A stretch of DNA of 39,232 nt from Candidatus Hydrogenedentota bacterium (GTDB lineage: Bacteria > Hydrogenedentota > Hydrogenedentia > Hydrogenedentales > CAIZGN01), in contig CAIZGN010000681.1 of NCBI GenBank assembly GCA_903932505.1, forward strand, positions 1 through 39,232, in the 5' to 3' direction. A program made the translations under genes and the position numbers. Under the pieces are notes generated by a model. That model was given only the letters and a program-made list of their open reading frames with translations, ran no database searches and was not told the DNA's origin. Positions 16,539-39,230 of the stretch are shown here, in pieces (positions within the stretch are counted from its first letter, which is position 1; every line of letters starts with the position of its first letter).

Positions 16539-16548
16539 CATGGATTCC

Positions 16549-17129: not shown

Positions 17130-17218
17130 ACCGCTATTCTGGCGAAAACACCAACAATTCGCAATTGGACTGGGCAGAGGTGGTGTCGAATCCGTTGCGC
17201 TTGACCGTTAATGTTGCG

Positions 17219-17428
17219 TTACGGTAGCGTTGCGTTGTGCGCATCGGGAACGCCCAGTTTTCTCAGGAAAGTCATCATGGGACACCAGTTGGTGAAAGCG
17301 GACTGCACCAGATTCAATCCCACAAAACCCGTAAAGAGAAGCCAATAGGGGCTATGAAATGCCGCCAACACGGCCGTGGCAACAACAATCGCCCCGGCTA
17401 TCAGTCGCAAGTACCGTTCAACATTCAT
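17219..17428 (-). CDS. Small DUF2892 (YgaP-type) inner-membrane protein
   Basis: A 69-residue protein with two hydrophobic segments (LRLIAGAIVVATAVLAAF and YWLLFTGFVGLNLVQSAF) followed by NWCPMMTFLRKLGV, the Cys-Pro ending typical of DUF2892 proteins. In some proteins this domain is fused to rhodanese and linked to sulfur handling; alone its function is unknown. ATG 17428 has AAGGAG 7 bases upstream; the longer frame from 17467 starts at about the predicted transcription start. It lies 134 bases upstream of the thioredoxin gene on the same strand and has its own sigma-54-type promoter. Confidence 0.85.
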   Translation of the reverse strand: MNVERYLRLIAGAIVVATAVLAAFHSPYWLLFTGFVGLNLVQSAFTNWCPMMTFLRKLGVPDAHNATLP

Positions 17429-17477
17429 AAGAGAACTCCTTCTTCCATTGTGCTCCGGATTGAGCACCCCAAGAAGA

Positions 17478-17495
17478 AAGCACGTTGCGTGCCAA
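17478..17495 (-). promoter_or_regulatory. Sigma-54 (-24/-12) promoter candidate ahead of the DUF2892 gene
   Basis: The minus strand reads TTGGCACGCAACGTGCTTTC. TTGGCACG is a perfect -24 element, GTGCTTT is one base from the -12 consensus TTGCTTT, and GG and GC are 10 bases apart. The predicted start is near 17468, 40 bases before the DUF2892 ATG. A sigma-54 activator gene lies within 0.4 kb on the same strand. A 13-base inverted repeat with 5-bp arms (17544-17556) lies where an activator site could be, but that is weak evidence. Confidence 0.75.
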
Positions 17496-17580
17496 GATAG
17501 GACTCGCAGCGTGGTCGCTTGGGCAATATGGTGCGCATGAAAGATAATTCCATTATGGAGACTGGAGGACTACAGAACGA

Positions 17581-17799
17581 ATGAAGTACCTCGTCATTAT
17601 TGAAAAGGGCACCGATAGTTTTTGCGCGTATGTTCCGGACTTACCCGGTTGCACGAGTGCCGGGAATAGTTTCGCAGACACGTTGGCTGGCATTCGGGAA
17701 GCCATCGAGGGACATCTGGAAGTCATGCGGGAATATGGTGACCCGATTCCAGAACCAAGCAGTGAGCCTGTGTTTGTTGATGTGCCGGTTGCGGTCTGA
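17581..17799 (+). CDS. hicB: Orphan HicB-family antitoxin-like protein
   Basis: A 72-residue protein with the HicB partial RNase H-like fold signature: MKYLVIIEKGTDSFCAYVPD, then LPGCTSAGNSFADTLAGIREAIEGHLE. HicB proteins neutralise the HicA mRNA-cleaving toxin. No hicA-like frame was seen on either side (17468-17580 and 17800-17851), so it is an orphan or acts alone. GGAGG lies 12 bases upstream of ATG 17581, a little far. It is divergent from the DUF2892 promoter and convergent with the sigma-54 activator gene, and any upstream activator site for the sigma-54 promoter may fall inside or just before it. Confidence 0.82.
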   Translation: MKYLVIIEKGTDSFCAYVPDLPGCTSAGNSFADTLAGIREAIEGHLEVMREYGDPIPEPSSEPVFVDVPVAV

Positions 17800-17851
17800 G
17801 GCCTTCTGAATGCAGCACTGTTCGGCGGCTGGTGCGGTTCCTGCGATGCCC

Positions 17852-19261
17852 TCAACCCGGCGGGTCCAGGGGAATCCCCAGCTGCACCATGCGCCGCCAG
17901 ACCTGGGTTCGCGTGATGCCGAGACGGCGGGCGGCTTCCGCCTTGTTCCATTCGCAGTCTTGGAGCATGGCCACAATCTCTTCCTTGGTGGCTGGGCGGT
18001 GCACCGGTTTGCGGGGTGGGGTTTCCCGGGGGTGCGCCGTCCTTCTTTCGCAGATGCGGTCCCGAATATCCGTTCGTCGGAGTTCCAGCGGAAGATCCAG
18101 TGCGCCAATCTCACCCTCGCCACAGGCCACAAAGGCATGCTCGATCGCGTTTTCCAGCTCTCGCACATTGCCCGGCCAGCAATAGTCCATAATCATCCGC
18201 ATCGCGTCGGGCGTCACGCCGGAGAGGTTTTTCTGCGTCCGAGCCCGGTACTTTTCCACAAAATGGGCCACCAGCGGCGCGATGTCTTCCTGGCGCTCGC
18301 GCAGGGGGGGCAGATAGAGCGGGAAGACGTTGAGGCGATAGAAGAGGTCTTCGCGAAATTGGCCGGACTCCACCTGCTTTCGCAGGTCACGGTGGGTGGC
18401 GGCGATGATGCGCACATCCACCTTGCGTGCTTGGGATTCGCCGATGCGCTCGATTTCGCGCTCCTGAATCACCCGCAACAACTTCACCTGAACTGAAAGC
18501 GGGATCTCGCCGATTTCATCGAGAAAAATCGTGCCGCCATCGGCACGCTCGAAACGGCCAATCTGATCCTTCACCGCCCCGGTAAAGGAACCGCGCACAT
18601 GCCCGAAGAGTTCGCTCTCTACGAGTGTCTCGGAAAGGGCCGAGCAGTGTACACTCACCAGCGGGCCATCTTTGCGGGGGCTGTGAAAATGAATAGCCTT
18701 CGCCACGAGTTCTTTGCCGGTGCCGGTTTCGCCTCGCACCAGCACCGTTGCCTCGGAAGCCGCCGCCAATTCCACCAGATGGTAGACTTGGCGCATGGCC
18801 GGGCTTTTCCCCACGATATTGTGAAACCGGTAGCGCTCCTCCACCTCGCGGCGCAATTGGGTCACTTCTGTTTCCAGGCGTTTCAGCGTGGAGATGTCAG
18901 TGACCGTCACCACCGCCCCATGGGGACTTCCCTCAGGGGCCAGCAGCACCCTGGCGCTCACCAATACCGGCAGAGCCGACCCATCCTTGCAGCGCACCGT
19001 CAACTCGCATCGGTCCATGCTCCCCTCGGCAAAGAGGCGGCAATACATACCCTCTTTCTCCTCATCCTCGCTCCCCTCCAGCCAAGTGAACACACCGCAG
19101 GGCTTTCCAACGGCCTCCCCAGCGGAATACCCCGTCAGGCGTTCCATCGAACGGTTCCAGCGCCGCACCTCACGAGCGGCATTCACCACAAAGACCCCGT
19201 CCGCCATCGTATCAAGAATGGCGGCGAGTTCCAGTGCATCGAGTTTGGGCGGTATGTCCAA
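17852..19261 (-). CDS. Sigma-54-dependent transcriptional activator with PAS sensor domain
   Basis: About 469 residues from TTG 19261. The N-terminal PAS domain (about 10-125) includes ILDTMADGVFVVNAAREV and MERLTGYSAGEAVGKP. The AAA+ domain has Walker A GETGTGKELVAKAI, the sigma-54 contact loop GSFTGA (an A-to-S change in GAFTGA), Walker B GGTIFLDEIGEIP and an arginine-rich LREDLFYRLNVFPL segment. The C-terminus is a Fis-type helix-turn-helix (NKAEAARRLGITRTQVWRRM). There is no response-regulator receiver domain, so PAS is the likely signal input. The frame stays open to ATG 19492, but that 77-residue extension is Pro/Arg-rich and overlaps a repeat fragment and a -10 motif, so the TTG (AGGA 9 bases upstream) is preferred. 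Likely target: the sigma-54 promoters at 17478 and 17112. Confidence 0.92.
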   Translation of the reverse strand: MDIPPKLDALELAAILDTMADGVFVVNAAREVRRWNRSMERLTGYSAGEAVGKPCGVFTWLEGSEDEEKEGMYCRLFAEGSMDRCELTVRCKDGSALPVLVSARVLLAPEGSPHGAVVTVTDISTLKRLETEVTQLRREVEERYRFHNIVGKSPAMRQVYHLVELAAASEATVLVRGETGTGKELVAKAIHFHSPRKDGPLVSVHCSALSETLVESELFGHVRGSFTGAVKDQIGRFERADGGTIFLDEIGEIPLSVQVKLLRVIQEREIERIGESQARKVDVRIIAATHRDLRKQVESGQFREDLFYRLNVFPLYLPPLRERQEDIAPLVAHFVEKYRARTQKNLSGVTPDAMRMIMDYCWPGNVRELENAIEHAFVACGEGEIGALDLPLELRRTDIRDRICERRTAHPRETPPRKPVHRPATKEEIVAMLQDCEWNKAEAARRLGITRTQVWRRMVQLGIPLDPPG

Positions 19262-19297
19262 GGCAAGTGTTCCTGTGTGGCCGGAGTTCCAGACCCT

Positions 19298-19303
19298 AGT
19301 ATA
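19298..19303 (-). promoter_or_regulatory. -10 candidate (TATACT) for the sigma-54 activator gene
   Basis: TATACT on the minus strand lies 37 bases before the TTG start. The surrounding 13 bases (AGTATAGCGCAGG on the plus strand, 19298-19310) recur exactly at 22581-22593 ahead of the Gfo/Idh gene in the same orientation. No -35 consensus is visible. Confidence 0.4.
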
Positions 19304-19350
19304 GCGCAGGGGGCGGGGGTGGCGGGAGTGCGGACTTGGTTCATAGTTCC

Positions 19351-19364
19351 ACGCTCGGGATGAC
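19351..19364 (-). repeat. Second fragment of the intergenic GTCAT-type repeat
   Basis: The minus strand reads GTCATCCCGAGCGT, resembling the start of the repeat at 15301. It lies in the 260-base divergent region between the activator gene and the TIM-barrel gene and supports reading this region as non-coding. Confidence 0.3.
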
Positions 19365-19435
19365 CGCTGGACTGTTTCGCGCGATACCATTTTTTCGATA
19401 TGCCCCTTGGGCGCTGATTTTTGCTCGACGGGTGC

Positions 19436-19466
19436 TTGACAAAACCCTGATTCCATTTGATAGGCT
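19436..19466 (+). promoter_or_regulatory. Sigma-70 promoter candidate for the Tat-exported TIM-barrel gene
   Basis: A perfect TTGACA (19436-19441) is followed, after a slightly long 19-base spacer, by TGA-TAGGCT (19458-19466). The start codon is 56 bases downstream. The spacing is not ideal. Confidence 0.35.
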
Positions 19467-19521
19467 TGGCATACGCTCTTCGTGGCAGGCATGATCTCAA
19501 CCCGGGTTTCTGGAGGTTCTC

Positions 19522-23541: not shown

Positions 23542-26500
23542 TCACCCTTGCTGTACCCTCACCGCGAATCGTCGCATCTCGTAGATGACCAAGCCATCTA
23601 CGAGAAGGAAACCGTCCGCGCGGAGGCGTTTGTCGGTGTCGTTGGCTTCGGTAATGACGGCTTCCACGGTGACTTCCCTGCTGGTCGGGACAACCTGGCC
23701 CCGGTAGATCCACTCGTGTTCCTCGCCCAGGGCTACGGCTTCGATGAGGGTGTCGGGACTGAGTCCCCAGCGCTCTTGGGCGGCTACTTTGAGCAGTTGG
23801 AGGAAGGCCTCCAGACCCAGGGAGCCGGGCCACACGGGATCCTGGTAGAAATGCGCATGGAAGAACCATTCGTCGGGGTTGACGGTTTTAGAGCCTCGGA
23901 TATAGCCCAGTTTCGCCGGGCCGCCTTCAGGGATCCAGGCATCGATGCGGTCGAGCATGCGCATGGTGGCATCGGGGAAGGGCGGATCGGCGGGATAGTC
24001 GAAAGCGCGGGCGTTGGCACTTTCCTCCGGATCGGGGAGATAACGCGCGGCATCGCGCACACCGATTTGTTCGGCGAGTGCCTGCTCGGAGAAGAAGCCG
24101 AAGTAGGTGGTGCCTTCGTAAACGAGGCCCTCTGCGGATTCGATGCGCATGGTGTAGTTCTGGATGATCATGCCGCCGGAGCGGGACACGTTGGTGGCGC
24201 GGACTTTGGTGGTGATGGTTCCTGCGTCGGGGAGGACATTGCGATGCTGTATGCCCTTGCCGCCCAGGTTGCGGAACTTCACGTCCGTTTCGCTGTAGAG
24301 GGCGGAACCCATGTATGCCGCGAGCCACCCGCAGGATTGCAGGCCGAACTCGAGGAGTTGCGCGTAGGGCATGACCGGCTGACGATTCGATGCGAAGTAC
24401 CACGCATCGGCGGGCACATCGTATTGGGCTTCCGCCGCACTGCCGGAGACCATCTTCCAGGCCTCGGCCTGAATCTCCACGATTCGACTAAGCATGAGGT
24501 AGGGCGGACGGGGCAGACGTGCCAACCGGCGTTCGCCGGAGTCAAAGGGCGCGTATCGGTCGCCATAGGATTTCGAGGGCGTGCCATCGGCGAATTCAAG
24601 GATGCGCTCGTAGGAAAACAAGGGATCGGTATGTGCTGTATCCAGCTGCTTTCCGGAGACCGCGTTGGCCCACAGGGCCTCCACGCCTTCGCGGGTTTGG
24701 CCAGAGAGCTGGAGGCACATGTCGGTGATGGCGACGATGGGCTTGCCGTCGGCGTACATTTTGGCGTCGGCGATGGCATAAGGCTCGGGCCGATAGCCGA
24801 TTTCCTTGATGATGGCCTCGTAGACCACGACCTTGGTGCTTTGCAGAACCTGGCCGCGACATTTGAGTCGGCTGGCGACCCCGGGCACGGGTTCCCAGGC
24901 TGCCTGCCCCGTTTCTCCGAGCCATCCCATGCGCATGAGGAAGACGCGGAAGGTGTGAAGGCAGCATTCGTACATGAGGGTGCCGGGCATAACCATGTCA
25001 TCGACAAAGTGACAGGTGAGGAACCAATCGTCGGGATGCACATCCATTTCGCCCAAGATAACACCTAGTCCGTAGCGGCCGCCGGTGGGGTCGAGCTTCG
25101 TGATGCGGTGCACGACATTCATGCGGCCATCGGGCAGGGTCAGCGGATTGCGCAGGGAGATTGAGGCAAAGGCGGGGCCGAAGCATCCGGCCAGATCGCC
25201 GTGTCGCAGGGCCTGCAACTGTTCCTTGGTGTAACTTTCCGCGGCCATGAGGACGAGTTCACGCCAATCGGCAGATCGCTTGCCCTGCGCAGGCGTTCGT
25301 TCCAGCTTGGACTCGGTGACGCCCTGTCCAGCGGCGAGTTCGGCCATCGTGAAGAAACCCGCACAGCCCTGGCGCATGCTGAGCAGCAGTTCGCCATTCA
25401 CGGAACCGTCAAACTGAAAATGGAAGAACCACGGGTTGCCATGGCGGAAGAATCGCTCGATGCGGATGTCATAGCGAATGACTTCGCCCGGTTTGGGCAG
25501 CCCGCGATAGAACGTGACGGCAGCATCGAGCAAGCGGTACATCGACTTGCCCTTGGTCTCGAAGTCGATACCCATGTAGCCGGAGAGGAAAAGGTCGGCC
25601 TGTCCGGCTTCAATGGCGATACACGCAGGAATGCGCCCGCCATCGAGATACCAGCCATCCCGCAGGACATCGTGTTCCGTGACCACGCGACCGGGTTGCA
25701 TCGAGCAGGGCGCGCCTTCGACTTCCACAATGCGATCGACCAGCATGAGCGGCTCATCGGGCAGCCGGACGCGGGTCGGATAGGTGTCCACTTCTGCAAA
25801 GGCCGGCCCCAGCATCTGGGCGAGAGTGCCGATGGCGAATTCCATGCACATATCGCGATCAAAGGCGACCGGAACACGACTCGTTGCGCGCGAGGGAAGC
25901 TCGGGGCTTGGGGACTGTGTTTCGCGCACCGGTATGGTCACACCGCCGCTTTGCAGCGCCGCCAGCAGGTCCATTTGGTGGCGCACCGTCTCGGCGTAAA
26001 GGTCGGTGAGCTGCGTGGAGAAGGCGAGATAGTGCTCATGCGCGGCTGCCTTCGCAAGTCCCGTCTCGTGGAGTTGTGCCACCAAGTTAGCGGCCATACC
26101 CGATGAAAAAACATCGGCCACGGACAGTGTCGCCGCTGTGGATACCGGCGCGGGCATTTCCGCCGGAGTCTCCGGCGCGAATTCCGTTACCGTCGACTCA
26201 GACGGGGAAAAGAGCGGCTCAGGCGTTTCTTCCTGCACGGATTCGGGCCACTCCTGCGACTCGGGTCGGGGCGGATTGAAGGGAGCGCCGCCGATGGGGG
26301 CGGAGACGCTCGGGCCCTCTGGCTGGCCGTGCAAATGGTGGTCGATGGCTCGCGAATCGCGACCATACAAAAACTCGAGATTGACGGGAACGTATTCCGC
26401 AGCCCACTGCGCCAGCGCGCGGAGAAAAAGAGACGGACTGTCCTGCCCCGCGTAGCAAATCGAACGGGCGAGATGCGGGCGGTCATCGAGGATTTTGGAA

Positions 26501-29500
26501 ATCATGCGCGTGCAGGAATTGCCGGGGCCAAGCTCGATGAAGATGCGCACCCCGTCGTCATAGGCGGATTCGATCACGGCGGGCCAGTCCACGCCGACAA
26601 TCGCCTGGGCCAGGATGGAATCCGCAGCGGTTTCTCGGGTGACTTCGTAGGCTCGACCCCATGCGCCGCTGTAAAATTGGACGCCGGGGGGTGGCGTGGT
26701 GTCCATGAGATGCAGGTCGTGATACGGTTTTTCGACGGCCTTCACAATTTCACAATGCACCGAGGTAACGCCCTGGATGGGGATGAACTGGCATTCGAGA
26801 TTGGTAATCAGCCGTTCGACCGCTTTGCGGTCGCCACCGATCACCGTTTCCTGCAAAGTGTTCGCGATGAGACCGTAGACTTTCTTGCGGTTTTTGAGGG
26901 CGCGCTTGGCGACCTTCATGGGCCGGTCGATCACCCCGAGCACCCAGTCCACCGCCTCGTGTTTGGGCAGTCCCCACATCTTGCGCGCGGCTTCGTAGTC
27001 GCCCGCGAGCTTCGTGGTGAAGAGATTCGACGCGTTGATCCGCCCCAGCATCTCGTCGCGGCCGTTCCAGGCACCGAGCGCAAAGAGTCCCGCCGTCTCG
27101 CCGAGGCTGTAGCCGATCACCGCCTCCGGCTCGATGCCCGCGCGGCGGGTCAAATCGCTGACCGCTGCACCGAGGGCCACCTGACCGAAAATGGTGGTCT
27201 TGTGGTTCTTGTGGGTCGGTTCGATGGATTCCACATTCCAGAAGGCGTCGGGCTGGAACTGGCTGCGGAGATATCGGTTGTCGGTGTCCTGATGCCGAAG
27301 AATTTCCGGCCAGCGCACGAACAAATCGCGACCCATGTCGATATAGTGGTTGCCCGATCCGGGGAAAACGAAGGCGACCTTGCGTCCCCGACACGGGCTC
27401 TTCGGATCGTAAAAGACACGGTCTTTCACGGAGGGTTCAAGCCGCAAGGAACCGGGCGCGTTGATGGGGCGGAGGGGATCGGCCTCGATGTGCTCGCGCA
27501 CGAGGACAATCTGTTCGAGCAGCTCCGCGACGCCACGCGCAGCCACCGCCACGATGTGTTCCTTGCCCGAAGGACCCCGATGTTCCCGCCACCACCGTCG
27601 CGCCACGGCCTCAATGTTGTGTTCGGGTGCATTGCCCACAAAGGTCTGGAGCAGCGCCAACGCGTCAAGCAATTCGCGCGGGGTGGTGCCCTCCACGACA
27701 AAGACGGCCTCATGCAGTGCGCCCAGCGGTTGCAGGCGTGCGACTTCGAGGCTGCGCTCGGTCGCCGAGGCCATGCCTTCAAGCACGACATGCAGCACGG
27801 AACCGCCCGCGTCTATTGAACTCGCCCCGGCCCGGCGTGGGCCGTCGGCGCGGTCATGCAACCAGTATTGCGGATGTTGCGGCACATATAGGCGCGTGCC
27901 CGGCGCGGTAAAATGGCCGCCTGTGTCTGCGGTGTTGCGCAAGGCGGGAATGATTTCCTGGTAGAGACACAGGCAAGCCTTCAGGACCGAAGCGAGACCG
28001 GAGGCTGCGCCCGCATGGCCCGCATCCGATACCACCGCCCCGATTGCGCACCGTGTGTCGGTGTCGGGGGCGGTCGCGAAAAACGCCTCAAGCTCATGGG
28101 CTTCCAATGCGTCTTCTTCCGGTACGGCGCTGGCGTTGGCCACGAGGTAGCCCACGGTGAGCGGATCGACGTGGGCATCGGCGTAGGCACGTTCCAGAGC
28201 CTGTCGATACGTTTTGGCGGAGGGCTGCGGTGTATCTGCGTCACCGCCCGTGGCCATGCCCAAGCCGCGCACCACCGCATAAATCCGGTCGCCATCACGC
28301 ACGGCATCGTCCAGACGCTTGAGCACCAGCGCGGCCGCGCCCTCGCCTTCAAGGGGCCCATCCGCCGCCGGATCAAAGGGTCGCGCGCGATCGGAGGTGG
28401 TAAAGCGCCGCCGTTGATCGTCTGCCATCGCGGCACGCACATCACCGGCGAGATCCACCGCGCCCACGAGGGCGGCATCGAGTTCGCCCCGCTGCAAGGC
28501 ACGCACGGCATTTTCCAGCGCGTGCAGGCCGGAGTTCTCCTCGCTGGACACGGCGTAGCTTGAACCGCCCAGACGCAATTCCCGCGCCACGCGACTGGCG
28601 GCAATGCTGCCCAGCGCGCCCATGACCCTGTTTGCCGAGAGTGCTGGCCCGGCGGCATCGCGCAACGCGCGAACCCATTCGTGAAACTCGCCATCGCTCA
28701 GGCGCAGATCGAGTTGTCTGGCCCATTGCTTGGCATTCTTTTCGATGGCCCAGCGGACGTTAAAGTTGGTGGTGTTGAGATCGAGGCCCAGCCCGATGAA
28801 CGCACCCGCGCGCGGGTTGTTCTCCGTGCTCATGCCCGCATCGTCCCACGCATTGGCCGCCACCCGGAGCATGACCAGTTGCTGCGGCAACATCTCCTCG
28901 AGTTCTTTCGGCGGAATGCGGAAACGGCTGAGAGGGACCCGCGCCTCGCCCAGGTAGAAGCCGCGCGGAGGGGTGTGTCCGGCGAATTCGCGGCGATACC
29001 ACGCGCTTTCCTCGACGCCCCACCAATGCTTGGGCATGCGCGGTTCTTCGTATTCCTGCCCGCCAAGCACGCGCTCCTGGAAGGCGCGGAGTGAGGCCCA
29101 CGGCCCGAAATGCGCATCCATGCCTACGATGGCCACGGCTGGGGCGGCTTCGTCCGAGGGGCGCGGCATCGATATCACGGTCTTGCCCGGACCGCGCCAT
29201 TCCTCGAAAAGCACATGCGCATTGATGCCGCCAAAACCAAAGGCACTCGCCGCCGCTTTGCGCGGACCGCCACCGGCGGGTTCGGCCCAAGGTCGGGCAG
29301 TGCGAAGCACGTCAAAGGGACTTCCTTCGAGACCGAAGGCTTCGGGCGCGTGCTGGAAATTTGCGGTGGGCGGCAGGGTTTGGCGTTCAAGCGCAAAGAT
29401 GGTCTTGATGGACGCTGCAGCCCCCGCCGCAGTCAGGAGGTGGCCGACGTTCGACTTCACCGAACTCAACACGCACTGCCCCGGTGTCCAGCCGTCCGTG

Positions 29501-30537
29501 CCCCACAGGGTCTTGAGGCTCTCGAATTCGACGGCATCTCCGACTGGTGTGCCGGTGGCATGGCACTCGATGAGCCCAAGTTCCCGGGCATCCCATCCAG
29601 CCATGGCATAGGCCGCACGCATGGCGCGCAACTGCCCTTCAGAGGTCGGCGCGAGCAAACGGCCGCCGACATCGTTCGACAATCCCGCACCCCGGATGAC
29701 GCCACGAATGCGATTGCCATCGCGCACCGCGTCCTCGAGGCGTTTGAGTACGAGCAGCCCGGCACCCTCGCCCACCAGCAGTCCATCGCCACTTTCGTCG
29801 AAGGGCGAGCATTTGCCCGAGGGGGACAAGGCGCGAAGTTGGGAGAAACCCATTTGTGTGTACAGCGGATCAGGTCGCGCCACACCACCCGCGAACATCA
29901 CATCGCATTCGCCTCGCTCCAGCTTGTCCATCGCGATTTTGATGGCGTAGAGCGACGAGGCACACGCCGCGTCCAGTGCCTGTGCGCCACCACCCAATCC
30001 CAAGGCCTTGGCGAGCACACCCGAAGGCAGCCCCGTGACAAAGCGGTTTAAGGGGTGGATTTTTTCCCCGCGTGAACTTTCGCCCAGCAGTCGCTCTTCG
30101 AAGGTGCGCCCCAGAATTTCTTGGGCGAGCGCGGCGGCGCGTTCGGTGGGCAGCGCGAGGTTGCCGATTACCACGCCCGCGCGTTCGAGACCCCAGCCTT
30201 GCACGCTGGCATCGTCGAAGGCGCGTTGCCCGGCGCAGAGCAGAACGCGATACAAGGGGTCGAGTGCCTCGACGAGGTCGGCGGCGATATTGAGCCGGTC
30301 GAGATCAAGTGCAAGCGTGTCGGGATCGAGAAAGTAGCCGCGTGTGCTGTAGACGCGGTCCAAGGCCCCGACATTGGGATCGAAAACGGACTCGGGCCGC
30401 ACCTGCCAGCGACCTTCCGGCGCTTCGCGCACCGTGTCCACACCCGCTTCCACGTTGCTCCAGAAATGGTCGAGATCGCGTGCGCCGGGGAAAACCCCGC
30501 CCAGACCGACAACCGCGATGGAATAGGGGCGGTGCAC
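23542..30537 (-). CDS. pfaC: PUFA-type lipid synthase subunit, KS-CLF-AT-DH-DH (PfaC/Pfa3-like)
   Basis: About 2331 residues from GTG 30537, with GGGAGG 9 bases upstream, 2 bases after the preceding stop. The KS (about 5-450) has an intact triad: DAACASS, ECHATGT and SNVGHL. The second KS-like domain (about 465-915) has SSEENSG in place of the cysteine motif and Asn in place of the first His, so it is a chain-length-factor type. An acyltransferase (about 1050-1370) has FPGSGNHY and GYSLGE. After a Pro/Glu-rich linker come four FabA-like hot-dog folds (about 1590-2325), that is two double-hot-dog dehydratase/isomerases. The motifs CHFVDDMVMPG and AHFYQDPVWPGSLGLEAF carry the catalytic His and partner region. 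It condenses, dehydrates and isomerises the growing acyl chain on the ACPs of the partner subunit. No acylglycerol-phosphate acyltransferase domain is present at the C-terminus. Confidence 0.92.
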   Translation of the reverse strand: MHRPYSIAVVGLGGVFPGARDLDHFWSNVEAGVDTVREAPEGRWQVRPESVFDPNVGALDRVYSTRGYFLDPDTLALDLDRLNIAADLVEALDPLYRVLLCAGQRAFDDASVQGWGLERAGVVIGNLALPTERAAALAQEILGRTFEERLLGESSRGEKIHPLNRFVTGLPSGVLAKALGLGGGAQALDAACASSLYAIKIAMDKLERGECDVMFAGGVARPDPLYTQMGFSQLRALSPSGKCSPFDESGDGLLVGEGAGLLVLKRLEDAVRDGNRIRGVIRGAGLSNDVGGRLLAPTSEGQLRAMRAAYAMAGWDARELGLIECHATGTPVGDAVEFESLKTLWGTDGWTPGQCVLSSVKSNVGHLLTAAGAAASIKTIFALERQTLPPTANFQHAPEAFGLEGSPFDVLRTARPWAEPAGGGPRKAAASAFGFGGINAHVLFEEWRGPGKTVISMPRPSDEAAPAVAIVGMDAHFGPWASLRAFQERVLGGQEYEEPRMPKHWWGVEESAWYRREFAGHTPPRGFYLGEARVPLSRFRIPPKELEEMLPQQLVMLRVAANAWDDAGMSTENNPRAGAFIGLGLDLNTTNFNVRWAIEKNAKQWARQLDLRLSDGEFHEWVRALRDAAGPALSANRVMGALGSIAASRVARELRLGGSSYAVSSEENSGLHALENAVRALQRGELDAALVGAVDLAGDVRAAMADDQRRRFTTSDRARPFDPAADGPLEGEGAAALVLKRLDDAVRDGDRIYAVVRGLGMATGGDADTPQPSAKTYRQALERAYADAHVDPLTVGYLVANASAVPEEDALEAHELEAFFATAPDTDTRCAIGAVVSDAGHAGAASGLASVLKACLCLYQEIIPALRNTADTGGHFTAPGTRLYVPQHPQYWLHDRADGPRRAGASSIDAGGSVLHVVLEGMASATERSLEVARLQPLGALHEAVFVVEGTTPRELLDALALLQTFVGNAPEHNIEAVARRWWREHRGPSGKEHIVAVAARGVAELLEQIVLVREHIEADPLRPINAPGSLRLEPSVKDRVFYDPKSPCRGRKVAFVFPGSGNHYIDMGRDLFVRWPEILRHQDTDNRYLRSQFQPDAFWNVESIEPTHKNHKTTIFGQVALGAAVSDLTRRAGIEPEAVIGYSLGETAGLFALGAWNGRDEMLGRINASNLFTTKLAGDYEAARKMWGLPKHEAVDWVLGVIDRPMKVAKRALKNRKKVYGLIANTLQETVIGGDRKAVERLITNLECQFIPIQGVTSVHCEIVKAVEKPYHDLHLMDTTPPPGVQFYSGAWGRAYEVTRETAADSILAQAIVGVDWPAVIESAYDDGVRIFIELGPGNSCTRMISKILDDRPHLARSICYAGQDSPSLFLRALAQWAAEYVPVNLEFLYGRDSRAIDHHLHGQPEGPSVSAPIGGAPFNPPRPESQEWPESVQEETPEPLFSPSESTVTEFAPETPAEMPAPVSTAATLSVADVFSSGMAANLVAQLHETGLAKAAAHEHYLAFSTQLTDLYAETVRHQMDLLAALQSGGVTIPVRETQSPSPELPSRATSRVPVAFDRDMCMEFAIGTLAQMLGPAFAEVDTYPTRVRLPDEPLMLVDRIVEVEGAPCSMQPGRVVTEHDVLRDGWYLDGGRIPACIAIEAGQADLFLSGYMGIDFETKGKSMYRLLDAAVTFYRGLPKPGEVIRYDIRIERFFRHGNPWFFHFQFDGSVNGELLLSMRQGCAGFFTMAELAAGQGVTESKLERTPAQGKRSADWRELVLMAAESYTKEQLQALRHGDLAGCFGPAFASISLRNPLTLPDGRMNVVHRITKLDPTGGRYGLGVILGEMDVHPDDWFLTCHFVDDMVMPGTLMYECCLHTFRVFLMRMGWLGETGQAAWEPVPGVASRLKCRGQVLQSTKVVVYEAIIKEIGYRPEPYAIADAKMYADGKPIVAITDMCLQLSGQTREGVEALWANAVSGKQLDTAHTDPLFSYERILEFADGTPSKSYGDRYAPFDSGERRLARLPRPPYLMLSRIVEIQAEAWKMVSGSAAEAQYDVPADAWYFASNRQPVMPYAQLLEFGLQSCGWLAAYMGSALYSETDVKFRNLGGKGIQHRNVLPDAGTITTKVRATNVSRSGGMIIQNYTMRIESAEGLVYEGTTYFGFFSEQALAEQIGVRDAARYLPDPEESANARAFDYPADPPFPDATMRMLDRIDAWIPEGGPAKLGYIRGSKTVNPDEWFFHAHFYQDPVWPGSLGLEAFLQLLKVAAQERWGLSPDTLIEAVALGEEHEWIYRGQVVPTSREVTVEAVITEANDTDKRLRADGFLLVDGLVIYEMRRFAVRVQQG

Positions 30538-30539
30538 GA

Positions 30540-33500
30540 TTAACGGCCTCCCGTCTTTGCAACGCTGGATTCGAGCAGGAGGTTGTCCCGGAACGCCTCG
30601 TTCAACGAGGTGGCTGCGGTGCATTCAAAGCCATCGATACGCGCCACCAGTGCGCCCGACTTGGGATCGAAAAACTCGATGGTTGCCACCGCGTGCCGCT
30701 TGTTTTGATCACCGACCTGCGCCACAATGCGCACCCCGCCTTGCGGGAAACGGCGCGCGAATTGTCGGTAGGACCGCAAATTCGAGGGCAGCGACGAGGC
30801 CCCGTGCCGGTGACGGCTGTACAAGCTCATCATCTGGAAACAGGTGTCGAGCGCGAGCGGGTCGGACAGCCAGGCTCCGCGCAGAGGCTTTGCAATCCAT
30901 TGTGCGGGCGCGGGCGCGGCGGCGATGGTGGCCGCGATATAATCTCCGGGACCTTCCTCCACGCCGGAGAGGCTTTGCAGGGCCGGCCCGTGAAAGAGGT
31001 AACCCTCCTCGTAGATTTCGCCGTGATCAAAAAAAGCACCGGGCAAGGGCGAGGCACTTAGTGCGGCCTGTCCGGCGGGTAGTTCATGGGCCAGCACGAC
31101 GGTCGCGTTGCCATGCAGGATATCGCCCTCGTTGCCGCGCAGCTCGGCGTGCACGAGGTAGAGCCCGCCCTGTTCCTCCGCCTTGGCCACACGTACAACA
31201 ACGGTATGGGTCTCTCCACTCAACAAGCGGATGCCTTTGCAGACCTGAAAACTGTCCAGGCCGTGAAAACGCAGTCCGGGATTCAGCTGAACCGCCGCTT
31301 GCGCCATCCACTCCATTATGAGCGCGGCAGGCACCACGGCGTGTCCCTTGATGACATGCGATTTCAGAACGGGGAAGGCTTCGACATCCAAGGGTAACTC
31401 AAAAGCGGTTTCCATGTCGCCGGAGCCGGGAGTGCTTTGCGGCGTGTCGGTTGCGGAGGGTATTTGCCCCGCGATGGCGACGATCTCGACCGCGCGTGAT
31501 TTCGGCGAGGCGATTTCAGAGACCAGATAGGCGGAACCGGTTTCAAGGCCGATCACGCCGATACCCTCGTCCGCGAAGAGCTTCTTCAGCGCGGGTGTCA
31601 CCATGCCGCCTTCCCAAGGCCCCCAGTTGATGGAGACGGTCTTGCAGCCCTCGCGCAACCGCGACTCGCGTTGAGCCATCTTGTTCAGCACTTCATTCGC
31701 CATCGCGTAGTCGGCCTGACCACGTCGGCCGAAACGCCCGGTGGACGAAGAGAACAAGGCAATCAAATGCAGGTCGCCGGGGTCTGCGGCCTCCAGTACC
31801 GCACGCAGGCCACAGACTTTGGTTTCATACACGGCCGCGAATTGCTCGATGGTCTTGTCTTCGATGAGGCGGTCTGCCAGCACCCCCGCGCCGTGCACCA
31901 GACCGCGCACCGGCCCAAGATCAGTGCGAATCGCGCTCAATACGGTACGCAGGGCCTCCGCATCACGAAGATCTGCGCTGTAATAATGAACCTGGGCACC
32001 GGCGGTACGCATGCGCTCGATGTTCCGCGCCACTTCGCGTTCCGCAAGAATGCGCCGACAAGATTCGCCAATGGATTTCGGGGTGGCACCCGCGCCTTCG
32101 TGCTCCATCAGCCCGCGCTTAATATCCGCCTCCGATTGGAGCGACGTGAGCCAAGACGGTTCGGCTTTCGGCGCATGACTGCGGCCAATCAAAGCAAGAA
32201 CGGGTTGGTAGGTCTTCGCAAGTGCAACCGCGACCTCTGCGGTGACGCCACGGGCACCGCCGGTGACGATCACCACGTCTCCTGCGCGAAGCAGGGGTGC
32301 GCCTTCGGCGGACGCGGGGCTGTCGAACGCAAGCGCGAGCCCCATTCGGCCGTTTTTCGACAATCCAGTTTCGACCGGGCCGTCCAAGGCCAATTCATCC
32401 GCAACCATCTCCGTCGATACGCCACGGGCCACGTCCAACGCCCGGCAGCGCACTTCGGGCCACTCGTGTTGGGCGGTTTTTGAAAGACCGGCCAGACCGC
32501 CCTGCAGCGGGTCAAAATCCGCCGATACACCAAGACCAAAACATCCGTCCATGCGCGATACGGTCACAAAACAGGATTGCGCGGTCTTGCGGAGACCCGG
32601 CCGGGCCCATTGCGCGATACGGAAGGCATCGGACAGGAATTCATCTTTCGTCGTCGCGTCGGGCCCCACAATGAGCAGTCCACCAACGGTTTCGGGCCTC
32701 GGGGTGTCATGGGCGGTCATGGGGATGCGCGTCGCGGCATATCCACGAGCCACGAGGGCGTTGCAGAGTTCCTCCGCGAAATCCGGGGCGTTGGAGGCGG
32801 GTGATGCGATCAGCCAGGGGGCTTGCTTTGAAAGGGATACCGTTGACGCGTCCGCTGACAGCGGAATGGTGCGCAACACTTGACCGAACAAGGGGGCTTC
32901 GTCGGACGCGAGAACCGCTGCGGGTTTCGCGACCGGGGCAGCCGCCGGTGTGGCGGACGCAAGGCCTCCCGCGAGGAACGCCGCGATCTGTGCGGGGGTA
33001 TGCAGTTGCCCCAATTGTTCAGGACCAATTTCCGGGGCTTCTGGCAGGCGTTCGCGAACAGTGGACAAGATTTCAACACGCTTGATCGAATCAATACCGA
33101 GATCCGCATCCAGTGTCATGCCCGGTTCCAGCATATCGACGGGATACCCGGTTTTCTCCGCGATAACCTCAATCAGCACGCGCTGTATCTCGTCCACGCG
33201 ATTGCTGGGGGGTGGGGCAACGGGTGCGGTCGCTGAAGATGCGCCCGACGACAAGTACCCGACGATATCGCGCAGGGTGTGCAACTGCCCCAACTGTTCG
33301 GGGCCAATCTCCGGGGCATCCGGCAGAGACTCGCGCACAGCAGAGAGAATCTCAACGCGTTTGATGGAATCGATACCGAGGTCGCCATCAAGCGACATGT
33401 CGAGTTCGAGCATGTCCACGGGGTATCCGGTCTTTTCGGCAATGGTCTGAAGCAGGATGTGCTCGGCGGCGGAATTTGACGGAGCAGGGGAAGCCACCGC

Positions 33501-36500
33501 CACGGGCGCACCGCTGGACAAATGCCCCACGATGTCGCGCAGGGTGCGCAACTGTCCCAATCGCTCGGGGCCAATTTCCGGGGCGTCCGGTAGTGCCTCG
33601 CGTACAGCGGAGAGAATCTCAACGCGTTTGATGGAGTCAATGCCGAGGTCGCCATCGAGCGACATATCGAGTTCGAGCATTTCAACGGGATAGCCGGTTT
33701 TCGCGGCAATGGTTTCAAGCAGGATGCTTTGTGCGGCCGAGGTTGAGGCTGCGGGGGCTGCAGATATAGCGGGCGCGCCGCTGGACAGGTGTCCCACGAT
33801 GTCGCGCAGGGTGTGCAACTGCCCCAACTGCTCGGGGCCGATCTCCGGGGCATCCGGCAGCGCATCACGCACCGCCGATAGAATTTCAACGCGTTTGATC
33901 GAGTCGATGCCGAGATCGCCATCGAGTGACATGTCGAGTTCGAGCATTTCGACGGGATAGCCGGTCTTTGCCGCGATGGTTTCCAGCAGGATGCGTTCGG
34001 CGGCATTGGGCGCGGCTGCGGCAGGCGGCGCGACTGGCCGCGCGATTTCCTTGGCGACAACTTGGGGTTGCGCGGCGCGAGGCGGCTCGACCGCGCGCGG
34101 GATGGGTTGGCTCTGCGCGACGGGGGCAACGCCTCCGCTGAAGGTTGAACGTTGCTGTTCCAGCAGCGAATGCAGCGTCTGCACGGCCTGTTGCTGGCCT
34201 TGAAGGAATTGCGTGTGGAGCTGCGCGGTTTGTTCCTGCAGCTGCTGCAAGGCTGCGAGATTCTGCTGGGTCATGCGCAGCGCTTCGGACCACTCGGCAG
34301 GGGCGGCCTGCGCGGGCATCTGTACATTTTGTGCGGGGCGTGCTTCGGTGGTGGCGGGTTGCGCCGGGGTCACCTTCACCTTGGTCGGCGACGGCGGAAT
34401 AGGCTTCGGCTGGAAGTGGTTGGCCCCGCTGAGCGGTACGGCGATCCGGGCTTTGCCGGTAGTGCTTGCCGTGCGGCGCAGAACGCCTTCATTCCATTTT
34501 TCGAGTGCGGGCGCATGGCCCAGTGCCGCGAGTTGCGCCAGTGTCCGCGCGAGGTCGACCAGACCGCCACGCTTGCCCGACGAACTGTCGAGCGCCAGCG
34601 CATGTGCATCGCGGCCTTTGAGAATTGATTGGACCAGACCGGTCATCCGCGCGCCCGGCCCTGCTTCCACAAAGGTTCGGACTCCGGCGGCATACATCGC
34701 CTCAATTTCACGCACGAACTCAACGGGATTTGCGAGTTGCGCGGCGAGCAAGGCGCGTGCCTCGGTCGGATCTTCGGGGTACCGCGAGGCCGTTGTGTTG
34801 GAGTACGCCGGAAGGGACGATGCCGTAAAGTCGATGGATTCCAGCGCCTTGAGGAAAGGCTTCTCCGCATCCGCCACCCAGCGACTGTGGAAGGCCGCAG
34901 CCACCGGCAGTTTTTTGGCGGTAATCCGGTGTCGGGCGAAAAGCGCCTCCGCCAGCGCGATGGCTTCGGTCGAACCGGAGAGCACGGCTTGGTCGGGCGC
35001 GTTCTTGTTCGCGACGATGACATCCAGCTTTTCTTCCGCCAGCACGGCTTCCACCGTTTCGAGGGGTGCGCGCACGGCCATCATCGCGCCTTTGTCACCG
35101 CTGCCCCGTGCCATCAGCGTGCCGCGCACCCGCGAAATGCGAAAGAGTTCCTCTTCCGTCACGCGCCCTGCTGCGTGGAGTGCGACGAGTTCGCCATAGC
35201 TATGCCCCGCAACGGCCTCAGGCCGGATGCCAAAATGAGCGAGAACTTTGAGGGCACCGACCGACACTGCGCCGATGGCCGGTTGCGCGTTTTGCGTGGC
35301 CTGCAATACGGCTTCCTGCGTGCGCTTGGTTTCTGCGTCGAATGCGGGTCGCGGGTAGATTTGATCGGAAACGCGTTCCGCTGCGGAGTCTTCCTTCAAA
35401 ACCGCGTGATTGGCGGTGTCGAGCGTATTGAGGAAGTCCGGGAATTGACACGCCAGATCGCGCAACATGCCGGGGTATTGCGCGCCTTGTCCGGGAAACA
35501 CGAAGGCCAGAGAACCAGATTGGATTCCTTCGCCATAAAAGACGCCGTGCGGGGTGTTCCATCCGCCCTCTTCACGACCGAGCGCGTCGGCCGCATCTCG
35601 CAGACGTTGGGCCAGATCGTCCGATTCCTCAAAGACCACCAAGAGACGGCAGGGCGCGGTGGCATCGAAGCCGGAGCGCGATTGCGCGGCTTGCAGGGCG
35701 CGTCCGTTCCAGTCGGTCGCGGGCTGGAAAGCCTCGACGGTCCGGCGAAGCGTTGCCTTGTCTTGCGCGGAAAGCGCGAGAATCTCGAGGGTGCCGTCCC
35801 AGTCGGCCTGTGTCTTTTGTCCTTGGTATTCCTCAAGCACGCAGTGAAAATTACTTCCACCAAAACCCATCGCGCTCACCCCTGCGCGGCGGGGATGTGT
35901 TGCACTCGGCAGCCAAGGCCGCTTGTCTGTGTTGACGTAGAAGGGGCTGGAAGCCTCGCACAAAATATCCAGCGGCTGCTTCACCTTGATGGTGGGCGGC
36001 AGGGTTTTGTTGTACAGGGCAAGCGCGGCCTTGATGAGGCCCGCAGCACCCGCAGCCGCTTTGGTATGACCGATTTGCGACTTGACCGAACCCAGTGCGC
36101 ACCACGGCTTACCCTGTGCGTCGCCAAAGGCCTCCACGAGGCCACTGACCTCTGCCGCATCGCCTGCGCGCGTGCCGGTGCCGTGCGCCTCGATGAGTTC
36201 CACCGTGTGCGGGTCGACGCCGGCCGCTTCATAGGCGCGACGCAGTGCTTTCGCTTGTCCCTTTGCGCTTGGGGCGTAGATCGCATCGCCTTTGCCGTCA
36301 CTCGACGAACCGACCCCGCGCAGCACCGCATAAATGCGATTGCCATCGCGCTCCGCCTCGTCGAGGCGCTTCAGCACGATCATCCCAAGGCCTTCGCCCA
36401 AGATCGTGCCATCGCCATTCGCGTCAAAAGGCTTCGAATCGCCGGAGGGAGACAATGCCGGGGTCTTGCTGAAGCACATGAACATGAAAATGTCGTTGAA

Positions 36501-37232
36501 GGTGTCCACGCCGCCGGTCACCACCACATCGGCCTTGCCCGCCTGCAATTCGAGCATGGCCATGTCCACCGCGCCCAGCGAACTCGCGCACGCGGCGTCC
36601 ACAACGCAATTGGTGCCGCCAAGGCCCAGGTGCTTGGTGATGCGCCCCGCGACGACGTTGCCGAGCAGGCCCGGGAAGGAGTTTTCCTGCCATGGCACAT
36701 AGGAACGGCTGATGCGGTTGACGACATCTTCGGCGGTGGCGTCGTCCACGCCCGCATCCTTGAGGCTCTTGCGCCAGATGGGGTGTCCGAGGCGAGCGCC
36801 GAGCGGGATGACCAGTTCGAGCGCACCGGTCACACCCAAGATCACGCTTACTTTCTCGCGGTCAAAGACGACATCCTTGCCGAGGCCCGCGTCTTCGAGT
36901 GCGCGCTCTGCGGCCACCATGCCCAGCAGTTGGGACGTGTCGGTCGCCTCGATGGCACTGGGCAGCATGCCATAGTCCATCGGGTTGAACTCTTCAACGG
37001 ACAAGAACCCGCCCCGATGCCCATAGGTGAAGTCGGGCCGCTTCGGGTCGCCGTCAAAATACTCTTCGGGCCGCCAATGGGTCGGGGGGACTTCCGTGAT
37101 GGCGTCCGTGCCCTGCTTGATGTTGGCCCAATAGGCACCGGGGCTGCCCGCCTTGGGGAACAGGCAGCCAATGCCGATGATGGCAATGCCGGGTAGGGGA
37201 TTCGCGGAAGGACGCGGGACACTCAAAGCCAT
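30540..37232 (-). CDS. pfaA: PUFA-type lipid synthase subunit, KS-MAT-4xACP-KR-DH (PfaA/Pfa2-like)
   Basis: 2230 residues. The KS (about 15-465) has DAACASS, EAHGTGT and SQIGHT. The malonyl transferase (about 570-870) has FPGQGAQYPG and GHSYGEL. A Gln-rich probable coiled-coil linker (about 985-1030) follows. Four tandem acyl carrier domains have the phosphopantetheine serine in LGIDSIKRVEIL near residues 1112, 1200, 1290 and 1382. The ketoreductase (about 1650-1920) has TGGARGVT, and SSSTGRFGRRGQADYAMANE with the catalytic Ser and Tyr. A C-terminal PKS-type dehydratase (about 1935-2205) has LKSHVIKGHAVVPA and DPLALDTCFQM. It carries and reduces the growing polyene chain. ATG 37232 overlaps the reductase gene by 10 bases and follows GAGGAGGA, so translation is coupled. 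The domain order equals PfaA of EPA/DHA synthases; four ACPs is within the known range. Confidence 0.95.
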   Translation of the reverse strand: MALSVPRPSANPLPGIAIIGIGCLFPKAGSPGAYWANIKQGTDAITEVPPTHWRPEEYFDGDPKRPDFTYGHRGGFLSVEEFNPMDYGMLPSAIEATDTSQLLGMVAAERALEDAGLGKDVVFDREKVSVILGVTGALELVIPLGARLGHPIWRKSLKDAGVDDATAEDVVNRISRSYVPWQENSFPGLLGNVVAGRITKHLGLGGTNCVVDAACASSLGAVDMAMLELQAGKADVVVTGGVDTFNDIFMFMCFSKTPALSPSGDSKPFDANGDGTILGEGLGMIVLKRLDEAERDGNRIYAVLRGVGSSSDGKGDAIYAPSAKGQAKALRRAYEAAGVDPHTVELIEAHGTGTRAGDAAEVSGLVEAFGDAQGKPWCALGSVKSQIGHTKAAAGAAGLIKAALALYNKTLPPTIKVKQPLDILCEASSPFYVNTDKRPWLPSATHPRRAGVSAMGFGGSNFHCVLEEYQGQKTQADWDGTLEILALSAQDKATLRRTVEAFQPATDWNGRALQAAQSRSGFDATAPCRLLVVFEESDDLAQRLRDAADALGREEGGWNTPHGVFYGEGIQSGSLAFVFPGQGAQYPGMLRDLACQFPDFLNTLDTANHAVLKEDSAAERVSDQIYPRPAFDAETKRTQEAVLQATQNAQPAIGAVSVGALKVLAHFGIRPEAVAGHSYGELVALHAAGRVTEEELFRISRVRGTLMARGSGDKGAMMAVRAPLETVEAVLAEEKLDVIVANKNAPDQAVLSGSTEAIALAEALFARHRITAKKLPVAAAFHSRWVADAEKPFLKALESIDFTASSLPAYSNTTASRYPEDPTEARALLAAQLANPVEFVREIEAMYAAGVRTFVEAGPGARMTGLVQSILKGRDAHALALDSSSGKRGGLVDLARTLAQLAALGHAPALEKWNEGVLRRTASTTGKARIAVPLSGANHFQPKPIPPSPTKVKVTPAQPATTEARPAQNVQMPAQAAPAEWSEALRMTQQNLAALQQLQEQTAQLHTQFLQGQQQAVQTLHSLLEQQRSTFSGGVAPVAQSQPIPRAVEPPRAAQPQVVAKEIARPVAPPAAAAPNAAERILLETIAAKTGYPVEMLELDMSLDGDLGIDSIKRVEILSAVRDALPDAPEIGPEQLGQLHTLRDIVGHLSSGAPAISAAPAASTSAAQSILLETIAAKTGYPVEMLELDMSLDGDLGIDSIKRVEILSAVREALPDAPEIGPERLGQLRTLRDIVGHLSSGAPVAVASPAPSNSAAEHILLQTIAEKTGYPVDMLELDMSLDGDLGIDSIKRVEILSAVRESLPDAPEIGPEQLGQLHTLRDIVGYLSSGASSATAPVAPPPSNRVDEIQRVLIEVIAEKTGYPVDMLEPGMTLDADLGIDSIKRVEILSTVRERLPEAPEIGPEQLGQLHTPAQIAAFLAGGLASATPAAAPVAKPAAVLASDEAPLFGQVLRTIPLSADASTVSLSKQAPWLIASPASNAPDFAEELCNALVARGYAATRIPMTAHDTPRPETVGGLLIVGPDATTKDEFLSDAFRIAQWARPGLRKTAQSCFVTVSRMDGCFGLGVSADFDPLQGGLAGLSKTAQHEWPEVRCRALDVARGVSTEMVADELALDGPVETGLSKNGRMGLALAFDSPASAEGAPLLRAGDVVIVTGGARGVTAEVAVALAKTYQPVLALIGRSHAPKAEPSWLTSLQSEADIKRGLMEHEGAGATPKSIGESCRRILAEREVARNIERMRTAGAQVHYYSADLRDAEALRTVLSAIRTDLGPVRGLVHGAGVLADRLIEDKTIEQFAAVYETKVCGLRAVLEAADPGDLHLIALFSSSTGRFGRRGQADYAMANEVLNKMAQRESRLREGCKTVSINWGPWEGGMVTPALKKLFADEGIGVIGLETGSAYLVSEIASPKSRAVEIVAIAGQIPSATDTPQSTPGSGDMETAFELPLDVEAFPVLKSHVIKGHAVVPAALIMEWMAQAAVQLNPGLRFHGLDSFQVCKGIRLLSGETHTVVVRVAKAEEQGGLYLVHAELRGNEGDILHGNATVVLAHELPAGQAALSASPLPGAFFDHGEIYEEGYLFHGPALQSLSGVEEGPGDYIAATIAAAPAPAQWIAKPLRGAWLSDPLALDTCFQMMSLYSRHRHGASSLPSNLRSYRQFARRFPQGGVRIVAQVGDQNKRHAVATIEFFDPKSGALVARIDGFECTAATSLNEAFRDNLLLESSVAKTGGR
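33040..33990 (-). repeat. Four tandem ACP repeats within the synthase gene
   Basis: The DNA encoding the four acyl carrier domains repeats with a period of about 270 bases. The first three domains are nearly identical (KTGYPVEMLELDMSLDGDLG recurs with one or two changes), whereas the last, closest to the KR, is more divergent (PGMTLDADLGIDSIKR). This indicates recent duplication or gene conversion of domains 1-3. Confidence 0.9.
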
Positions 37233-38851
37233 TCCTCCTCGAGTTGGTCCAGAGGACGCGGAACCACCTGCACGGCCTCAGCCGGCACGGGGATTCCCTG
37301 ATTACGCAATGCCGCGCAGCGGGTCATGACCGCCGCACCATACAGGATATTCTTAGCCACGGTAACCGCCCGGCGGTTCTCCGGCGCTTCGAGAAACGAA
37401 CCACGAACCCATTCATTGAACGCGCCCATGGCCGGGCCGCACCAAATCTGATAATCGATCTTGCGGTCGGGTAGACCCTGATTCGCCCACCCGGAGGCCT
37501 GTCCCAAGTAGGCGCGAAACACCAGCGCCATCTTGTGCTTGGGATCCTGTTCCGCCCGTGCAATTTGCTTTGGATCGCGGCGCATGAAGAAGGCCTTGGT
37601 TTGTTCCCACACCGTGCTGAACGGTGCGCGAAACATCGTCTTCTCCAGTTTTTCCCGCTCGTCGGCGGGTATGTCTTCGAGCCGGTTGTACTTCCGGTAG
37701 AGTTCGTAGAGCTTTGTGCCGCGCATGGCGAACATCGTGCCGCGCTTGAGCACCTGCACTTCGACCCCCATCTCGAACATGTCGGCGGCGGGTGCCATCG
37801 TGATGTCCGCCTGTGTCGTCTCCGCCAGCATCTGGCGCACGGTGTCCGAAGAGCCGGACTCGACACAGGCCTGATTTACGGAACCCGTCACGAGATACGC
37901 TGCGCCCATGGCAAAAGCGGCCGCCGCCGAAGCGGGCGTTGAAATGCCGCCACCCAGACCCACGCGCAGCGGTTCGGCGTAAGTGTGCTTCGCCTGCATT
38001 TGCCCGGCCAATGCGAGCATGGTCGGCAGCAGGGTGATCGCGGGCCGCCGGTCGGTATGTCCGCCGGAATCGGCCTCGGCGGTGAGGTCCTGCGCCATGG
38101 GAATCCGGGCCGCCAGTTCCGCTTGGGCCGGGGTGATGAAGCCGGAGGCCACCAGGGGCTCCAGGAATCGTGCCGGGGGCGGGGCAAAAAACTTCGAGGC
38201 CACTTCGATGCGTGAACATTTCGCGATGACGCGGTTCGGGGTCACAATCGCACCCGAATCGTCCCGGTAGATGCCATGCACCCGGTATTTCACAATTGGC
38301 AGCGTCAAATCGAGATAGGCGGAGGCCTCCACGAGCGTCACACCGCGTCGGATATAGAGATCCGCGACAGCTTGCTCAAGGTCGGGCTCGTTCGGGCTGT
38401 GGATGAGGTTGCAACCGTACGGCAGCCCCCCCAGACGCACTTCCAGCTCGTCAATGGCCTTTTCAACGACATCGGCGGGCAGTCCGGCCGCGCCGAAGAA
38501 TCCGAGAAACCCGGCTTTTCCCAATGCTTCGGCCAGGGCTACCGAGGCGATGCCATTCGCCATCGAACCGCCGTAGTAGGCGTATCGGAGCCCGTGGGCG
38601 CGACGAAATGCGGGGTCGCCCAATTGGTCGATGGGACAGGCCGGAACGCACGCGAGCATCGGCAGGGTTTCCGTGACCACTGCGGTCTTCGGAGCGCCGG
38701 TAGCCAAACCCAGACCGCCATCCAAGGAAACGGCATATACAGGCAGACCGATGCAGCCGAGGGCACGCGAGACCCCCGCCTCATCCCAAGGCGCAACGCG
38801 AGTCTCCGCACCGAGCCAGCCGAGCAACTTTCTTTCTCCGGTATACGCCAT
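37223..38851 (-). CDS. pfaD: PfaD-like enoyl reductase of the PUFA-type lipid synthase
   Basis: 542 residues, the usual PfaD length. It is a TIM-barrel flavoprotein of the 2-nitropropane dioxygenase-like group. Landmarks include KLLGWLGAETRVAPWD at the N-terminus, YGGSMANGIASVALAEALG, LPYGCNLIHSPNEPDLE, the FMN phosphate-binding region LRVGLGGGISTP, and a C-terminal YQIWCGPAMGAFNEWVRGS, which is strongly conserved in PfaD. It reduces trans-2-enoyl chains on the ACPs. ATG 38851 has GGAG 5 bases upstream; the ORF extends to 38866 without better support. It is the first gene of the operon and overlaps the next by 10 bases, keeping the subunits in step. The reductase-first order is unlike marine pfaABCD clusters. 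Confidence 0.95.
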   Translation of the reverse strand: MAYTGERKLLGWLGAETRVAPWDEAGVSRALGCIGLPVYAVSLDGGLGLATGAPKTAVVTETLPMLACVPACPIDQLGDPAFRRAHGLRYAYYGGSMANGIASVALAEALGKAGFLGFFGAAGLPADVVEKAIDELEVRLGGLPYGCNLIHSPNEPDLEQAVADLYIRRGVTLVEASAYLDLTLPIVKYRVHGIYRDDSGAIVTPNRVIAKCSRIEVASKFFAPPPARFLEPLVASGFITPAQAELAARIPMAQDLTAEADSGGHTDRRPAITLLPTMLALAGQMQAKHTYAEPLRVGLGGGISTPASAAAAFAMGAAYLVTGSVNQACVESGSSDTVRQMLAETTQADITMAPAADMFEMGVEVQVLKRGTMFAMRGTKLYELYRKYNRLEDIPADEREKLEKTMFRAPFSTVWEQTKAFFMRRDPKQIARAEQDPKHKMALVFRAYLGQASGWANQGLPDRKIDYQIWCGPAMGAFNEWVRGSFLEAPENRRAVTVAKNILYGAAVMTRCAALRNQGIPVPAEAVQVVPRPLDQLEEEWL

Positions 38852-39077: not shown

Positions 39078-39230
39078 ACATCCCCCGGCTCTTCGGAAGG
39101 GGGATTAATTTGCGCGTCGCGCCTGTGACTGCAAAATCGGCCACCTCCAGAGGTGCTGGACCCAAACCGCGCGAAGCGCAACAAAAAAATCCCCCTTCCG
39201 AAGGGGGTGGCCCGAAGGGCCGGGGGATGT
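39078..39230. mobile_element. MITE-like element with about 45-bp imperfect terminal inverted repeats
   Basis: ACATCCCCCGGCTCTTCGG at the left (from 39078) is matched by the reverse complement of the right end (to 39230). The right arm carries about 14 extra bases between two CTTCGG copies. After that the arms match again through AAGGGGGATT and into a TTGCGC...CGCGC stretch. The middle (about 40 bases) has a CACCT/AGGTG hairpin and no coding capacity. The right arm itself folds (CCCCCTT/AAGGGGG and GGCCC/GGGCC). It could be a non-autonomous transposon or a palindromic repeat. The right flank is cut by the window edge, so target duplications cannot be checked. Confidence 0.6.

Follow-up and report, generated by a model that had tools for sequence, protein, structure and literature searches.

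An intact Pfa-type lipid synthase operon in a Candidatus Hydrogenedentota genome, probably coupled to olefin synthesis

Results

The pfa operon. We analysed a stretch of 39,232 nucleotides from Candidatus Hydrogenedentota bacterium (assembly GCA_903932505.1, contig CAIZGN010000681.1), referred to here as the window. It carries an intact Pfa ("secondary lipid") synthase, probably of the ole-coupled kind known from Geobacter, in which OleA would join the chains into a polyunsaturated hydrocarbon resembling C31:9. Judged from the sequence, the identity of the synthase is far beyond chance by size and score.

Three intact frames on the minus strand, together covering 38851-23542, make up the operon in the order pfaD, pfaA, pfaBC. 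This is the reductase-first order given in an earlier note on this DNA. The first gene, pfaD (37223..38851), encodes an enoyl reductase (ER) of the PfaD family (TIGR02814, 620 bits; cut-off, 449). The best solved relatives of its product are 6lkc and 4yx6, both PfaD of PUFA synthases. Its start was placed at ATG 38851, and the reading frame extends open to TTG 38866. The second gene, pfaA (30540..37232, start ATG 37232), scored 1651 bits with TIGR02813 (cut-off, 1010), and Pfam domains gave the architecture KS-MAT-ACPx4-KR-DH. Pfam and family models assigned KS-CLF-AT-DH-DH to the product of the third gene, pfaBC (23542..30537; protein P0003), which starts at GTG 30537 in a frame that extends open to ATG 30624. 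The pfaD stop and the pfaA start share exactly 10 bases (37223-37232), and 2 bases lie between the pfaA stop (TAA) and the pfaBC GTG, reproducing the tight coupling noted earlier. Each junction has a purine-rich stretch resembling a ribosome-binding site (GAGGAGGA; GGGAGG). A terminator-like hairpin 5' of pfaD (39191..39207, minus strand), found by pattern scan only, is probably the end of the preceding gene; the contig edge lies 380 bp upstream of pfaD.

Domains and active sites. All domains given here are read on the minus strand. In PfaA, Pfam and motifs located the ketosynthase (35832..37187; DAACASS, EAHGTGT, and SVKSQIGH) and the malonyl transferase (34611..35510; GHSYGE). These are followed by four tandem ACP domains (33006..34031; PF00550 four times, GIDSIKRVEIL), a ketoreductase (31611..32273; PF08659), and a C-terminal PKS-type dehydratase with approximate limits 30633..31421 (PF21089, E 8.7e-6, just under the cut-off). 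The best solved match of the PfaBC ketosynthase (29194..30522) was 6riw ("ORF10"), a Moritella marina protein. Alignment to 6riw placed the chain length factor at approximately 27775..29136, where an SSEEN motif replaces the catalytic Cys of the KS, likewise in the solved KS-CLF. The PfaB-type acyltransferase (26482..27372; PF00698) bears GYSLGE and TSVHCEI and scored 59 bits with pfaB_fam, under the cut-off. Four FabA hot-dog units (23575..25782; PF07977 four times) form two FabA-like double hot-dog dehydratases, with the motifs HFVDDMVMPGTLMYE and HFYQDPVWPGSLGLE. The motifs of the KS (Cys/His/His), MAT, ACP (serines), AT (GYSLGE plus His), and DH were all present. The three-gene PUFA-type synthase is thereby confirmed in its exact coordinates, domains, and active-site motifs. 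We found four features by which a Pfa synthase is recognized: a PfaA over its model cut-off, a partner with KS-CLF and FabA-like DH-DH, a PfaD-type ER, and a PPTase in the genome.

Components described as absent. The earlier note had described the operon as lacking pfaB, an AGPAT domain, and a PPTase, and a domain scan of the window indeed found no separate pfaB, no AGPAT, and no PPTase. The statement on pfaB is valid for a separate gene only, because a PfaB-type AT is fused inside PfaBC. This AT has the Tyr-type GYSxG motif of PfaB, while the MAT of PfaA has GHSxG instead. The Tyr-containing motif has been described for PfaB, which acts as terminal acyltransferase and determines the PUFA product (PMC12895367). 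The absence of AGPAT held: PF01553 had no match in P0003 at E 0.01, and the same scan detected it in the positive control, a PfaC-like protein of Azospirillum lipoferum (E 2.9e-10). As for the PPTase, none is encoded in the window, but the genome has a HetI-like PPTase on contig C235 and a second PPTase domain at the C-terminal end of another PKS on contig C676. The latter PKS is a fragment (L057, C676:1-5030) that encodes KS(C-term)-AT-PS_DH-PPTase as a single reading frame of 1230 aa; after it come an ACP-like ORF of 104 aa and a phosphodiesterase-like ORF. The genome also gave three thioesterase-family matches (4HBT_2), none linked to the operon.

ole genes in the same genome. Homologues of all four OleABCD proteins were found in the genome of the window. 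OleA (C399:9603-10646) scored 462 bits with PRK09258, over the cut-off; its solved matches belong throughout to one OleA-type group (3row and others), and the Cys, His, and Asn positions are conserved. OleB (C628:19589-20443) and OleC plus OleD (C568:1127-3732) were identified by homologue search and fall below the strict equivalog cut-offs; the latter two match the models for olefin beta-lactone synthetase and 2-alkyl-3-oxoalkanoate reductase. In a tree, the OleA of this genome falls in the pfa-linked OleA clade (100/99), apart from the OleA of three pfaBC-free genomes. Some observations count against an ole-coupled reading. The ole genes are unlinked to pfa, with oleA, oleB, and oleCD on three other contigs and no ole-like gene in the 23.5 kb of the window downstream of pfaBC. 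Moreover, bin contamination is 4.9%, and tetranucleotide profiles leave the membership of the ole contigs unsettled.

The position held by oleA in relatives, directly 3' of pfaBC, is occupied in the window by an HNH endonuclease-like gene (PF13391, 22712-23458); in genome G033 a GmrSD/HNH gene likewise lies between oleB and oleC. Elsewhere in the window, a 561-aa ORF (8449-10134) fuses an AP_endonuc_2-like sugar isomerase with a ribulose-phosphate 3-epimerase domain, and the minus strand at 11966-19492 encodes an RND efflux permease and adaptor, a DUF6132-thioredoxin ORF, and a PAS-sigma54 activator.

Association of pfaBC with ole genes across the phylum. We compared 68 genomes of the phylum (species of one order). 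Orthologues of pfaBC were present in 14 of them, with 51-61% identity over the matched parts. A close oleA was found in 13 of these 14 genomes versus 3 of the 54 without pfaBC (Fisher p ~2e-10, kinship ignored, a value that overstates independence because the genomes share ancestry). When any ole gene was counted, the figures were 14/14 versus 3/54, leaving out G008, a pfaBC-free genome with a single weaker OleC-like match (37% identity). The one genome with pfaBC and no close oleA, G042, has a completeness of 63% and carries oleB, oleC, and oleD. Apart from the genome of the window, which is the exception, all 12 genomes with both genes have oleA immediately 3' of pfaBC, on the same strand and 15-700 bp away. 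One named relative, the NP119 MAG (L003; Myxococcota by NCBI ranks), was found by a genome scan with PfaBC. It carries an unbroken pfaD-pfaA-pfaBC-oleA-oleB-oleC-oleD series, the ole genes being assigned by Pfam and NCBIfam.

Stand-alone PfaD genes, on contig C262 of the genome of the window and in genomes of family f3, were considered as a rival synthase and rejected: those examined had no PfaA or PfaBC nearby. Since the examined extra PfaD genes stand alone, ole tracks pfaBC and not PfaD. These reductases (L160, C262:3078-4559; L161-L164) are 46-60% identical to the PfaD of the window. Such genes also occur in many family f3 genomes without pfaBC, and the copy in G033 adjoins an OleD paralogue. 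Three genomes without pfaBC (G019, G020, and G018; L042, L043, and L044) have a diverged ole set whose OleA shows 38-42% identity; its substrates presumably come from ordinary fatty acid synthesis. More distant PfaC-like synthases of 30-36% identity are present in the same phylum (L023, G023:C197:38401-42564; L018 and L025 in G055).

Phylogeny of the synthase. Trees of KS-CLF and of the PfaA KS-MAT region covered the phylum, NP119, and plasmid records of Persicobacter, Azospirillum, and Streptomyces, with the 6riw protein added in the KS-CLF tree. The window joined its own phylum and then NP119, with support of 100/99 in the KS-CLF tree and 99/97 in the KS-MAT tree. The AGPAT-bearing Azospirillum came next outward in both trees, and its branch was long. 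Across a starred branch lay Persicobacter and Streptomyces in either tree and, in the KS-CLF tree alone, the marine protein 6riw.

Discussion

Proposed pathway. According to our model, PfaA, PfaBC, and PfaD would use malonyl units to build polyunsaturated acyl chains on the four tandem ACPs of PfaA, and the genome-encoded HetI-like PPTase would activate these ACPs. From them, OleA would then remove two chains, for which the Shewanella analogy predicts C16:4, and condense them head-to-head. OleD, OleC, and OleB would convert the resulting beta-keto acid to a polyunsaturated olefin of very long chain length, which is probably C31:9 or closely analogous to it. The earlier note had argued that release must use another enzyme. 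The genome content supports this idea and makes OleA the likely off-loading enzyme, which would answer the release question. The suggestion in the note that the product might be another specialised lipid also gains support. The PfaB-type AT in PfaBC may additionally release a longer PUFA, a role that PfaB has in marine bacteria, and phospholipid PUFA is a further product that the synthase could make. Our analysis shows the gene set, its domains and motifs, and the co-occurrence and adjacency of pfaBC and oleA in relatives, whereas the chain length, the unsaturation, and the action of the dispersed ole genes on this synthase are inferred. It is established for Shewanella that OleA draws a chain, predicted to be 16:4, off the Pfa ACPs and, with OleBCD, yields C31:9 (PMC6463001). 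Counting against the ole-coupled reading, no hydrocarbon was detectable in Photobacterium profundum SS9 although it possesses both pathways (PMC6463001).

Comparison with known systems. The closest parallel by published descriptions is the Type I synthase of Geobacter bemidjiensis, which is ER-first, has the same enzymatic parts as the window, and has no AGPAT reported. In that organism pfaD,A,B,C, oleA,B,C,D, and pfaE are in tandem, and C31:9 is made (PMC4882568). The coupling to oleABCD is matched by the adjacency in the relatives of the window and in NP119, whereas the genome of the window has its ole genes unlinked on three contigs and its PPTase elsewhere. In the proposal of Shulse and Allen, olefin precursors are what Type I synthases provide; the same authors noted that the ole genes can sit elsewhere in the genome, adjacency not being required of every member (PMC3098273). 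By the published criteria (PMC3098273, PMC4882568), the window shows a PfaB-type AT fused with PfaC, the ER-first order, and no AGPAT; another Type I trait, adjacency of oleA-D, is missing from its genome, while oleA is adjacent in the relatives and NP119. The Type A systems of Shewanella and Photobacterium (pfaABCDE plus oleABCD; EPA and C31:9) share the enzymatic domains of the window, and there OleA draws on the Pfa ACPs. They differ in having a separate pfaB and in placing pfaD after pfaC; in the window, PfaBC includes the AT and the operon begins with pfaD. In addition, the marine 6riw protein belongs to a different clade in the KS-CLF tree.

Alternative products. The main product might instead be a conventional C20-C22 PUFA, freed by the PfaB-type AT and put into phospholipids by an ordinary PlsC, with the ole genes secondary or acting on other chains. 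Every domain of an EPA/DHA synthase is present, the AT has the motif of the enzyme that sets the PUFA product (PMC12895367), and Shewanella can contain the two products side by side (PMC6463001). We nevertheless regard this reading as unlikely, given the strict association and adjacency of pfaBC and ole across the phylum and the absence of an AGPAT domain. We think it still less probable that the operon is a terrestrial-myxobacterial (Type L) PUFA cluster minus the AGPAT domain of Pfa3, the type whose gene order the earlier note had found similar. The pfa1-3 clusters of Aetherobacter and Sorangium are, like the window, three-gene and ER-first with the AT in the third protein, and the AGPAT-bearing Azospirillum is the next outer branch in both trees, though long-branched. 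However, the ER-first order is common to several cluster types, occurring also in the Azospirillum cluster and the ole-linked NP119 cluster. Type L synthases end in AGPAT, which is truly absent here with the Azospirillum control positive; the window is therefore not of the terrestrial-myxobacterial type as defined. NP119 likewise lacks AGPAT, and the ORFs of the relatives, at 2272-2436 aa versus 2929 in Azospirillum, are too short for a terminal AGPAT. These relatives carry oleA instead, and a loss at the base of the clade would be required.

Another kind of specialised lipid, such as a glycolipid tail, a lipopeptide tail, or a phenolic lipid, seems very improbable. PUFA-synthase relatives do yield such products and a HetI-like PPTase is present, but no NRPS, type III PKS, or glycosyltransferase adjoins the operon, and the presence of dehydratases sets it apart from the heterocyst-glycolipid type of PMC3098273.

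Implications. The ole-coupled pathway that we favour has already been described; what is new is that one member has its ole genes scattered, and the host phylum may be new as well. Our literature search found no report of Pfa-Ole in this phylum with dispersed ole genes, which is weak evidence, as most subscription journals were outside its scope. Several families of this phylum, which has few or no cultured members, might use Pfa mainly for very long polyunsaturated membrane hydrocarbons, with the pfa-oleA operon dispersed in some and all genes kept; we offer this tentatively, at somewhat less than even odds. Through this analysis, a PUFA synthase that looked like an "orphan" for want of a visible release enzyme becomes part of a testable pathway, with OleA as the likely partner. 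If the proposal is true, a further phylum would join those with Pfa-Ole coupling, and the recognition of Pfa ACPs by OleA could be tested in a genome that naturally keeps the synthase apart from the ole genes.
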